A stretch of 64,000 nt of DNA from Cyanobacteria bacterium FACHB-DQ100 (GTDB lineage Bacteria; Cyanobacteriota; Cyanobacteriia; Leptolyngbyales; Leptolyngbyaceae): the NCBI GenBank assembly GCA_014695195.1, contig JACJNW010000019.1, positions 1-64,000 on the forward strand. Reading direction: 5' to 3'. The notes beneath the pieces were generated by a model. The model was not told where the DNA came from and did no database searches. It worked only from the letters and a program-made list of their open reading frames with translations. Each line of letters begins with the position of its first letter. The first letter of the stretch is position 1. Shown piece after piece: positions 8,303 through 51,855 of this stretch. Made by a program: the position numbers and the translations under genes.

Positions 8303-9379
8303 ATGCAATTTATCGATCAAGCAGAAATTCAGGTTCAAGCCGGCGATGGCGGAGATGGCATGGTGTCATTCCGGCGGGAGAAGTATGTGCCTGCGGGTGG
8401 GCCAAACGGCGGCAATGGGGGACGCGGCGGATCGATCGTTCTCAAAACCAACGAAAATCTTCAAACCCTGCTCGATTTTCGCTACATGAGATTGTTCAAA
8501 GCGGATAACGGACAGAAAGGCGGCTCGAATAATTGCACCGGGGCATCGGGGCGCGATCTCATCATCGAAGTTCCTTGCGGTACGGTGGTTTATGATGCCG
8601 AAACCGATGAAGTGATCGGAGACTTAACCAAACAGGGTCAGACTCTAAAAATCGCAGAAGGCGGACGGGGCGGTTTAGGCAATCATTGTTTTTTGAGTAA
8701 TCGCAATCGTGCGCCGGAAAATGCGTTTCCAGGACAACCCGGAGAAGCACGATCGCTGCGACTCGAACTCAAACTATTAGCCGAAGTTGGAATTATTGGC
8801 TTACCGAACGCAGGTAAATCCACGCTGATTTCTGCATTATCGGCAGCACGTCCGAAAATTGCCAACTATCCGTTTACAACCCTGGTTCCAAACTTGGGAG
8901 TGGTTCGCAAACCAACCGGAGATGGCACTGTGTTTGCAGATATTCCGGGATTAATCGAAGGCGCACACATGGGAATTGGACTCGGACATGATTTCTTGCG
9001 CCATGTGGAGCGGACTCGATTACTGTTGCATCTGGTTGATGTCACTGCCAATGATCCGATCGCAGATTATCAAACCATTCAGGGCGAACTTGATGCTTAT
9101 GGACGAGGGTTAAGCGATCGTCTCCAGATTCTTGCAATCAATAAACTTGATGCGGTCGATCCAGAAAGCGAGGAAGTGAACGCGATCGTTTCTGAATTAG
9201 AACAACTGAGCGGTACGACCGTGTTCAAAATTTCAGCCGTATCACATTTTGGACTTGAGACATTAATGCGGCAAGTTTGGCAGACTCTCGATGAGTTGAA
9301 AGCGCAGGAAGAAGCAGAACAACTCGCGATCGAAGAGTCAATCGAGGAAACAGCCATGTCTTTGGAACCCAGAAGCTAA
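8303..9379 (+). CDS. obgE: GTPase Obg (ribosome-associated)
   Basis: Obg/CgtA is an essential GTPase in 50S ribosome assembly and stress signalling. The 358-residue protein shows the glycine-rich Obg fold (1-158, [20 protein letters not shown] and [11 protein letters not shown]). The G domain has GLPNAGKST (G1), DIPGLIEGA (G3), NKLD (G4) and SAVSHFG (G5). The variable C-terminus is short and acidic. The ATG at 8303 is chosen because the family begins MQFIDQAEI. It has no tight operon partner. Confidence 0.97.
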
Positions 9380-49633: not shown

Positions 49634-49996
49634 TTATGCCGAGAATGACTTACCGCAGCCGCAGGTTTGATTGGCGTTAGGGTTAGTGAACTGGAATCCG
49701 CCGCCGATTAAAGCAGTGCTGTAATCCAGCATCAAGCCATAGAGATAAAGTAAGCTTTTCGGATCGCACACAACTTTAAAGCCGTCATAATCAGAAACAT
49801 GATCATCAGGGCGAATGTTGTTTGGATCTTCAAAATCCATGGTGTAGGACATTCCAGAGCAACCGCCGCCGCGCACACCGACGCGCAGACACAGATCTTT
49901 ACCTTGCTGTTCTCGAAGCATCATTACGTGCTTTAGGGCGGATTCGCTCATTTGAATGCCGCGCTGGGGCTGAGTAGCTGGAGTAGTTTGAGTCAT
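49634..49996 (-). CDS. A-type iron-sulfur cluster carrier (IscA/SufA family)
   Basis: The 120-residue protein carries the three conserved cysteines of A-type carriers: Cys46 in [11 protein letters not shown], and Cys112 and Cys114 in QTCGCGKSF. It transfers Fe-S clusters to target enzymes. The ATG at 49996 has a GGAG Shine-Dalgarno about ten bases upstream and gives the usual length; an upstream start (50020) is less likely. It is divergent from the ric gene, so two Fe-S genes share one intergenic region. Confidence 0.93.
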
Positions 49997-50128
49997 GCGA
50001 TCGCTCCTACGAAATCCCAATTGAAACTGGTTATATCCCTATTTTAGCAATTCTGCTCTTGCAATCACGGGTTTCCGTGCAATCGACGATTAAAAGTTAC
50101 GAAGATCATTCAAAAACAAAGCCTATTT

Positions 50129-50142
50129 TTGATCTAAGTCAA
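50129..50142 (+). promoter_or_regulatory. FNR/NnrR-type palindrome upstream of ric
   Basis: TTGATCTAAGTCAA matches the TTGAT-N4-(A/G)TCAA class of sites bound by FNR, DNR and NnrR regulators. Its centre (50135.5) lies about 41.5 bases before a plausible start near 50177, given a TACGCT -10 element at 50165-50170. This is a class II activator spacing. The assignment is sequence inference only. Confidence 0.6.
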
Positions 50143-50199
50143 GGCATTCGCACAATGATTCCCCTACGCTTGAATTGTGAATGGTTCAAGGACAAAGCA

Positions 50200-50919
50200 A
50201 TGACAACTTTCGAGATTAATAATACTGTCGGCGCGGTCGTGCGTGATTATCCTGCTCTTTCGCGTCAGTTTGAACAAGTAAACATTGACTATTGTTGCGG
50301 CGGCAAAAGAACTTTAGAAGAAGCCTGTCGTCAACGCGGTATCGATCCTGAAGCATTCCTAACGCAGTTAGAGAACAATGCAGCTAAAGAACCTGCCTCG
50401 GAGATGAATTTGAGTGGTTTATCGTTGACCGCCCTAGCAAATCATATCGAGCAGACTCATCACGCCTATCTGCATACAGAACTTCCACGCCTCGAAAAGA
50501 TGGTGACAAAAGTTGCTGCGGTGCATGGAGACAAAGAACCTCGTTTACTTGAAATCAGAAACGTCTTTCTAGAGCTATCGGCAGACCTGACAACCCATTT
50601 GCTTAAAGAAGAGCAAGTTTTGTTTCCGATAGTTCGACAGTTAGAAGCGAGTAATGTTCTCCCTATCTTTCATTGTGGTAGTTTGTGCAATCCTGTTTCT
50701 CGGATGGAACTTGAGCATGATGCTGCTGGACGTGCATTAGAAAAACTGCGCCAACTCACCAACAATTACACTCCGCCAGAATGGGCATGTAATACCTATC
50801 GATCGATGCTGAACGCGCTAGAGGCTTTTGAACAAGATATGCACCAGCACATCCACAAAGAAAACAATGTGCTGTTTCCGGGTGCGATCGCATTAGAGCA
50901 AAAGTTTATCCACTCCTGA
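50200..50919 (+). CDS. ric: Iron-sulfur cluster repair di-iron protein Ric/ScdA
   Basis: Ric (also YtfE or ScdA) repairs Fe-S clusters damaged by nitric oxide or oxidants. The 239-residue protein has the ScdA N-terminal domain with the Cys pair (YCCGGKRTLEEAC, Cys32 and Cys33). A hemerythrin-like four-helix bundle has the di-iron His and Glu ligands (LANHIEQTHHAYLHTELPRL, HLLKEEQVLFP, MELEHDAAG, HIHKENNVLFPGA). The ATG at 50200 starts the recognisable domain; in-frame sequence upstream to 50059 overlaps the regulatory box and is not coding. Short genes for CopD-like and YwiC-like proteins follow. Confidence 0.93.
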   Translation: MTTFEINNTVGAVVRDYPALSRQFEQVNIDYCCGGKRTLEEACRQRGIDPEAFLTQLENNAAKEPASEMNLSGLSLTALANHIEQTHHAYLHTELPRLEKMVTKVAAVHGDKEPRLLEIRNVFLELSADLTTHLLKEEQVLFPIVRQLEASNVLPIFHCGSLCNPVSRMELEHDAAGRALEKLRQLTNNYTPPEWACNTYRSMLNALEAFEQDMHQHIHKENNVLFPGAIALEQKFIHS

Positions 50920-50922
50920 TTA

Positions 50923-50991
50923 ATGCTGTTCAAAATTCTAGTCATTCTGCATACTCTAGGAGCGACCGTCTGGACAGGTTGGGTGGGCTAG
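50923..50991 (+). pseudogene. N-terminal stub of a CopD-like membrane protein
   Basis: The 22 codons from ATG 50923 read MLFKILVILHTLGATVWTG, then WVG and TAG at 50989. The first 19 residues match the first helix of CopD/DUF2269-type membrane proteins, whose pattern is LHTLGATxWTGGH. Nothing resembling the remaining helices follows; about 40 bases later the ywiC-like gene begins. It is best read as the surviving end of a deleted gene. Confidence 0.7.
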
Positions 50992-51030
50992 GTTAGAGAT
51001 CAAGGTGCTGTAATCACAAAGGATAGTGCA

Positions 51031-51855
51031 ATGACGCTTCCAGGCTCTAGTTCGCTTCCAGAAAAAGCTTCTCACTCTTCTGGTCAGGCTTGGTATCGTC
51101 CGATCGTGTCACCCGAACATGGAGCCTATGTGATGTTGCTAGTGTCATTTCTCACTGGAGCGGCAGCCGCACAACATTGGACAGGGGCAACTACACTCGC
51201 GCTAATTTCTGCATTTGCAGGATTTCAGGCAGAACATCCATTAGTGCTGCAAATCAAGCAGCGACGAAGTTGGAAACCTCGACTCTTAGCTTGGGGCGGA
51301 CTGTATGCGGTTGTCTCATTTAGTATTGCAGCTTATTTATCTCTGCAAGCTTCTGAATTGTTGTGGTTGTATCTAGGTGCGATCGTCGCTTTTGCGGTCG
51401 ATGCAATTTCAGTCTTTTACCGACAGCAAAAATCATTTGGTAACGAACTATTAACCTTTGCAGCCGTTTGTCTTGCCGCACCATTTGCTCATATTGCAAC
51501 CGGTGGAGCTTTGACAGCTTCAATTGTAGGACTGTGGCTGTTGAACACTCTATTCTTTAGCAGCGCCATTTTTACGGTAAAGCTGCATAAACCGAAAACG
51601 GCATCATTAACGCTAGCACTGATTTATCACGCGATCGCAACTTTGATGGCTTGTGGACTTTGGTACTACGGCTGGTTGAGCTTGTATTCAGCGATCGGAT
51701 TTGGTGTGGTTCTGCTGAAGTTTACTTTGATTTTGGCACGACGCAATTGGTATCAAACAACAGCAATTCAAAATGTTGCCATGCTTGAAACCAGTTCTGC
51801 ATTGTTATTTTTGGCAATCGTGGCACTGTCCCTACTGCCTGCCCATCTCAACTAA
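51031..51855 (+). CDS. YwiC-like family membrane protein
   Basis: The 274-residue protein has about eight membrane helices. The YwiC signature IVSPEHGAYVMLLVSFLTG lies near residue 26, followed by HPLVLQIKQRRSWKPRLLAW and LLTFAAVCLAAPFAHIATG. In Bacillus, ywiC lies beside fnr and nitrate-respiration genes, which fits the FNR-like site and ric upstream here. Biochemical role unknown. It follows the CopD stub by 39 bases and is convergent with the MFS gene. Confidence 0.87.
   Translation: MTLPGSSSLPEKASHSSGQAWYRPIVSPEHGAYVMLLVSFLTGAAAAQHWTGATTLALISAFAGFQAEHPLVLQIKQRRSWKPRLLAWGGLYAVVSFSIAAYLSLQASELLWLYLGAIVAFAVDAISVFYRQQKSFGNELLTFAAVCLAAPFAHIATGGALTASIVGLWLLNTLFFSSAIFTVKLHKPKTASLTLALIYHAIATLMACGLWYYGWLSLYSAIGFGVVLLKFTLILARRNWYQTTAIQNVAMLETSSALLFLAIVALSLLPAHLN

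Follow-up and report, generated by a model that had tools for sequence, protein, structure and literature searches.

The window analysed here is the 64,000-nucleotide stretch C19:1-64000 of the genome of Cyanobacteria bacterium FACHB-DQ100 (hereafter G000, 5.5 Mb). It carries a short palindrome, predicted to bind a regulator, followed on the same strand by ric, a copD remnant and a ywiC-like gene, and flanked on the other strand by the gene of an A-type Fe-S carrier. The features are as follows.

49634..50020, minus strand: A-type Fe-S carrier (TIGR00049), listed from the first start codon (TTG); a neighbour, probably outside the unit
50129..50142, plus strand: predicted regulator-binding palindrome TTGATCTAAGTCAA (HcpR/DNR-type box), conserved at ric, with an identical copy beside the regulator gene and co-occurring with the regulator
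50165..50170, plus strand: predicted -10 element, TACGCT, separated from the box by 22 nt
near 50177: transcription start as predicted from the spacing, with the box centre at -41.5 (class II)
50200..50919, plus strand: ric, a di-iron protein of the RIC/YtfE/ScdA family, 239 aa
50923..50991, plus strand: copD remnant, a 22-codon frame with an internal loss of 373 bp (junction between 50978 and 50979)
51031..51855, plus strand: ywiC-like gene (PF14256), a probable member of the ric operon

The order of box, ric, copD relic and ywiC-like gene had been given in a preliminary description of this DNA made from its letters alone, and it is confirmed at 50129-51855. In a profile search, the ric product matches TIGR03652 over its full length (250.6 bits for a curated cut-off of 204.7) and it contains the ScdA_N and hemerythrin domains that define a RIC/YtfE di-iron repair protein. 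An open reading frame starting from a TTG at 50059 spans the box, but the N-terminus of the protein in six relatives corresponds to the ATG at 50200, which is located 64 nt from the box centre. The ywiC-like gene belongs to PF14256 with an E-value of 1.3e-29. The copD relic is well accounted for by an alignment with locus L075 of Cyanobacteria bacterium FACHB-63, where an intact copD is placed between ric and ywiC and from which the 373 bp lost in the window can be read. In the same locus, box and spacing are identical to those of the window and ric is 90% identical. At L076, where ric is 73% identical and the upstream neighbours differ, TTGACTTAAGTCAA is found at -70, and the box is also present at ric in the genomes G007 and G005. 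The preliminary description had counted the A-type carrier gene as part of the unit. Its divergent position and its family (TIGR00049) hold; its membership probably does not, since such a gene was found in only one of the 38 other ric loci searched, namely L075 of the same genus. The carrier was therefore rejected as a partner of ric and is probably a bystander.

Taken alone, the box is unremarkable and proves nothing, because loose matches occur at a number close to that of shuffled DNA: with up to two mismatches to TTGATNNNNATCAA, 60 matches are found in the window versus 48.6 expected, 10 of 100 shuffles reach 60, and single mismatches account for six of the 60. The case rests on comparison. 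Over the whole genome, TTGAYNNNNRTCAA is present at 45 sites versus 20 for the reversed control. Exact copies of TTGAYYTARRTCAA are limited to four, at ric, on contig C33 (identical to the ric box), on C35 and on C44. When one mismatch to TTGAYYTARRTCAA is allowed, 36 sites are obtained, of which two display the class II -10 spacing, i.e. the ric site and one within a coding frame; the box of ric-ywiC is the only one of the 36 that combines a gene start with this spacing. At the exact sites on C33, C35 and C44, no -10 element at this spacing was found in either direction. For this reason, C35 was dropped as a further target, and so was C44, whose site also lies within a bisphosphate nucleotidase frame. 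The C35 site (exact TTGATTTAAGTCAA, C35:118175-118188) is located about 240 bp before the substrate-binding gene of an ABC transporter, which is nrtA-like by eye and for which NCBIfam gives only a sub-threshold match to SsuA.

A cognate regulator, which the preliminary description proposed to seek elsewhere in the genome, has a candidate on C33, where the box identical to that of ric stands beside its gene.

G000:C33:14109-14786: candidate DNR/HcpR-type CRP/FNR regulator, 225 aa
G000:C33 (L040, about 8600-8965), minus strand: hcp remnant that has lost most of the gene and has broken frames, divergent from the intact regulator gene

This second copy, found as TTGACTTAGATCAA, is located 91 bp before the regulator gene, between it and the hcp remnant, which consists of an N-terminal piece (assigned by eye) and of fragments from residues 451-551, which lie in two frames. 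In relatives, the regulator gene is likewise next to hcp or norB, with a TTGACnnnnGTCAA-type site between the two genes. Since the C33 site lacks the -10 spacing in both directions, autoregulation is unsupported in G000. The protein combines a cNMP-binding domain with a Crp-type helix-turn-helix, its best solved match is DNR (PDB 3dkw, E 5.7e-28), and none of the NCBIfam models matched it over cut-off. No cysteine is conserved over the 225 aligned positions of the 45 family members, 13 of which have no cysteine there at all, and the conserved N-terminal cysteine cluster that marks FNR is thus missing from the family. FNR proper was rejected on these grounds, and the C33 protein is assigned by its sequence to the DNR/HcpR kind; from the earlier FNR/NnrR-like reading, a regulator of CRP/FNR type is kept and FNR itself is lost. 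The recognition helix is exactly GTIP[E/A]TLSR in 36 of the 45 members, and the C33 gene is the only one with TLSR or TISR, in the frame examined, among the 17 CRP-type genes of G000 (HTH_Crp_2 matches, 15 of them over cut-off). In a tree of 69 CRP-type proteins, from which the truncated L082 was left out, the 45 members form one clade (100/99) versus 24 other cyanobacterial CRP proteins. The norB/glbN-linked rows make up a single clade (100/100) and the G000 member falls among the hcp-linked rows, with weak support for the forks that place the latter basal. Among the 16 hcp-labelled rows are three (L095, L098 and L197) in which the regulator has no hcp next to it, and L126 owes its norB label to a cluster elsewhere in its genome.

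The distribution of these elements across cyanobacteria brings box and regulator together. The ric gene is present in seven of 39 genomes, G000 included, and in 20 of 194 genomes of the class, while the regulator (E at most 1e-40) is present in 37 of the 194. With the genomes taken as independent in the tests, which in fact they are not, the regulator is found in 14 of the 20 ric genomes versus 23 of the 174 others (Fisher 1.4e-7), TTGAYYTAAGTCAA (73 genomes in all) in 36 of 37 genomes with the regulator versus 37 of 157 without (1.3e-17), and the perfect palindrome TTGACTTAAGTCAA in 23 of 37 versus two of 157 (3.8e-18). The sole regulator genome without any TTGAYYTAAGTCAA is G022. Conversely, G142 has the box at norB-ric and the regulator was not found there (4.4-kb contig). 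An exact box is located within 700 bp of the regulator gene in 27 of 38 cases, the other 11 being counted as misses and a partial second match in G028 being excluded. G007, which has neither hcp nor a box near its regulator gene, has kept both the regulator and an unchanged ric box.

For the comparison of the box across cyanobacteria that the preliminary description suggested, the named ric loci whose upstream DNA is available number 19 (a 20th, L092, is cut at the contig start and was excluded). Of these, 15 have the box: in five it stands at ric itself, and in 10 it heads a norB or glbN operon of which ric is a member. Of 36 further loci, some of them from genomes already sampled, 29 contain a box that departs from the perfect palindrome by two mismatches at most; it faces glbN in 12 of them, hcp in nine, norB in seven and another gene in one. 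The seven without are L177, L179, L180 and L181, which are ric loci of a second type (R2, see below), and the regulator loci L197, L203 and L204. The common layout starts with the regulator gene, divergent across the box from norB, glbN, ric, copD and ywiC, from which members drop out from place to place, and the box-headed operons of relatives cover hcp, norB, glbN and ric. No norB was found in the genome G000. Regarding promoter geometry, 46 box promoters were hand-picked by annotation (box facing a non-regulator gene, one of the two L080 boxes, and second loci from genomes already represented, L100, L183, L186 and L188, being left out). In 43 of them (39 of 42 without near copies), the box is followed by TANNNT at a distance of 22 or 23 nt, and the motif was found at no other offset from 19 to 34; the three failures are L196, L211 and the hcp remnant L040. 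When the -10 hexamer is set at -12 to -7, the box centre falls at -41.5 or -42.5 from the predicted starts, which is the geometry of a class II activator. The class II spacing claimed earlier before ric is in line with this, its -10 element being 22 nt behind the box as in the box promoters of relatives.

On this comparative basis, the ric box is very probably the docking site of an NO-type regulator encoded elsewhere in the genome. We read ric-ywiC as an operon that would be switched on in class II manner by the DNR/HcpR-type activator encoded at C33:14109-14786, probably through NO sensing, the same switch heading hcp, norB, glbN and ric-copD-ywiC in relatives, and we give this reading a probability of about 0.86. 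It draws on genome comparison for the box, the regulator, their co-occurrence, the geometry and the target set; we infer that NO is the ligand, that activation takes place in vivo and what YwiC does. The activator would sense NO, bind TTGATCTAAGTCAA centred at -41.5 and contact RNA polymerase as class II activators do; the resulting rise in RIC may allow iron centres damaged by NO to be repaired. In G000, the regulon would have worn down, with hcp and copD as remnants and norB not found, and ric-ywiC would be its surviving part. The earlier proposal left the signal between NO and low oxygen; because of the target genes, NO is the likelier of the two. The stress regulon as then described mostly holds, with a regulator and a conserved box added and the A-type carrier removed; it withstood both refuting checks named with it, namely a box not conserved before ric in relatives and a genome devoid of such a regulator. 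Among the observations that count against the box switch are the control of glbN by NtcA in Nostoc, cited in PMC8400943, the presence of TTGAYYTAAGTCAA somewhere in the 37 regulator-less genomes mentioned above, and the cases of G022 and G142.

Three other explanations of the ric box were weighed. FNR proper could read it by means of its Fe-S cluster, in which case the operon would answer low oxygen rather than NO. The box indeed resembles an FNR site, and norB of Synechocystis is up in far-red light with little oxygen, significantly so in one of two atmospheres (PMC10830646); however, the lack of conserved cysteines in the 45 regulators, and targets that are NO-consuming or NO-repair proteins, make this explanation improbable. 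It is still less probable that the box of G000 has no function at present, being a chance or a relic sequence. The hcp and copD remnants, the failure to find norB and the absence of clear enrichment of loose FNR-like matches in the window would all suit this view, but the box is unchanged in G007 despite the lack of hcp in that genome, the frames of regulator and ric are open, and the -10 spacing is kept. Finally, the many CRP-type paralogues of G000 offer other candidates for reading the ric box. We regard this as the least probable explanation, since the box tracks one regulator family, at 700 bp or less from its gene in most cases, and neither TLSR nor TISR occurs, in the frame examined, in any of the other 16 paralogues.

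In some genomes, ric may be under a second switch. An exact TTGAYYTAAGTCAA is found either at ric or heading its operon in 14 of the 20 ric genomes, and 13 of these have the HcpR-like regulator, the exception being G142. The six others (G017, G023, G096, G133, G145 and G158) have TATGAGSTASCTCATA, with the form TATGAG(G/C)TA(G/C)CTCATA, about 130 nt before the ATG of ric; G158 has in addition an HcpR-like regulator beside hcp. A second CRP-family regulator, named R2 here, is present in 37 of 194 genomes, including all six with the second palindrome at ric and two of the 14 others (G000 and G188), with a partial match in G023 and one that occupies two frames in G158. R2 has the helix ITYEECVRL, its best PDB match reaches only 9.6e-13, and none of the NCBIfam models matched it over cut-off. 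In 1.18 Mb of loci, ATGAGNNNNCTCAT is found exclusively before ric (six genomes), the globin of G000 or norB of G005. R2 loci also include globin (L231, L245), norB (L238, L241), AOX (L233, L257) and ywiC (L232, L234, L248). A perfect R2 site is present in only eight of the 30 R2 loci listed (of 38 matches), three of the eight being the ric sites themselves. In G000, the arrangement on contig C40 (L220) is as follows.

G000:C40:127-825, minus strand: R2 regulator
G000:C40:1906-1921: palindrome TATGAGCTACCTCATA
G000:C40:1977-2417, plus strand: single-domain globin

The C40 palindrome is thus about 1.1 kb from R2 and before a globin (PF00042) with bacterial haemoglobins, 1vhb for example, among its relatives of known structure, and the same palindrome stands at ric in the six genomes without the HcpR-type box at that gene. 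The class II layout does not recur at the six ric palindromes of R2 type, where no TANNNT was found in the stretch 10-39 nt behind. We somewhat favour the view that two interchangeable NO-defence switches serve one gene set (ric, norB, globins, AOX and ywiC), an HcpR/DNR-type regulator acting on TTGACTTAAGTCAA and R2 on TATGAGSTASCTCATA, and that genes moved between the switches across lineages. G000 would have both, with ric on the first and the single-domain globin on the second.

The HcpR-like switch is of a known kind, because Rodionov et al. 2005 (PMC1274295) predicted HcpR with TTGACnnnnGTCAA sites for Anabaena variabilis (Avar17201, hcp) and Synechocystis (slr0449, norB); that paper reports no other such sites in these two genomes. 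As in those cases, TTGACnnnnGTCAA sites accompany a CRP/FNR regulator gene that diverges from hcp or norB, the likeness to slr0449 being one of gene arrangement and site. Unlike them, ric, glbN, copD and ywiC are linked here and the promoter geometry is defined. In a full-text search for cyanobacterial HcpR, only the 2005 work bears on the subject by its title. Our results extend the prior prediction to ric and glbN as targets and to a second switch. The gene dnrN is presumably a homologue of ric. It is HcpR-regulated in B. fragilis and Desulfuromonas according to PMC1274295, which makes a ric-type gene part of an HcpR regulon as here, but in other phyla. Pseudomonas DNR (3dkw), besides being the best solved sequence match, shares an FNR-like site and NO-related targets with the C33 regulator, the nir and nos genes being among its known targets (PMC1274295). 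Likewise, ric of P. stutzeri is positively regulated by the DNR-type DnrD (review PMC9268430), a case of ric under a DNR-type regulator in a proteobacterium; the main text of the review has no occurrence of 'cyanobacteri'. Slr0449 has been named dnr, and metabolomics of its knockout are given, in PMC5318462. NO-defence control in cyanobacteria is little studied: the authors of PMC8400943 ask that the norB-glbN upstream regions be analysed, and PMC10830646, whose authors describe the induction of norB as 'not clear', refers to harm done by NO to the photosynthetic apparatus. What this work offers for tests in culture is a site with its candidate regulator and promoter layout. It may also illustrate how a regulon shrinks towards a single target, or swaps its regulator, while the repair gene persists.

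The alternative oxidase AOX is NO-tolerant, and its gene lies inside the box-headed norB-ric cluster of L100 (5221-5979) and beside ric in L081 (5112-5813), where the second palindrome is found. In L085 (7183-12703), from a cyanobacterial MAG, genes for a cytochrome c, the respiratory nitrate reductase alpha subunit NarG (TIGR01580 match over cut-off) and a 4Fe-4S protein stand just behind a box-headed ric, a cluster that could possibly be an NO source beside an NO repair gene. One box of G200 faces a phosphoketolase-like gene and has no -10 element. In L190 (G170) and L093 (Phormidium tenue FACHB-1050), ric is apparently broken or cut short, and the box and glbN are kept.
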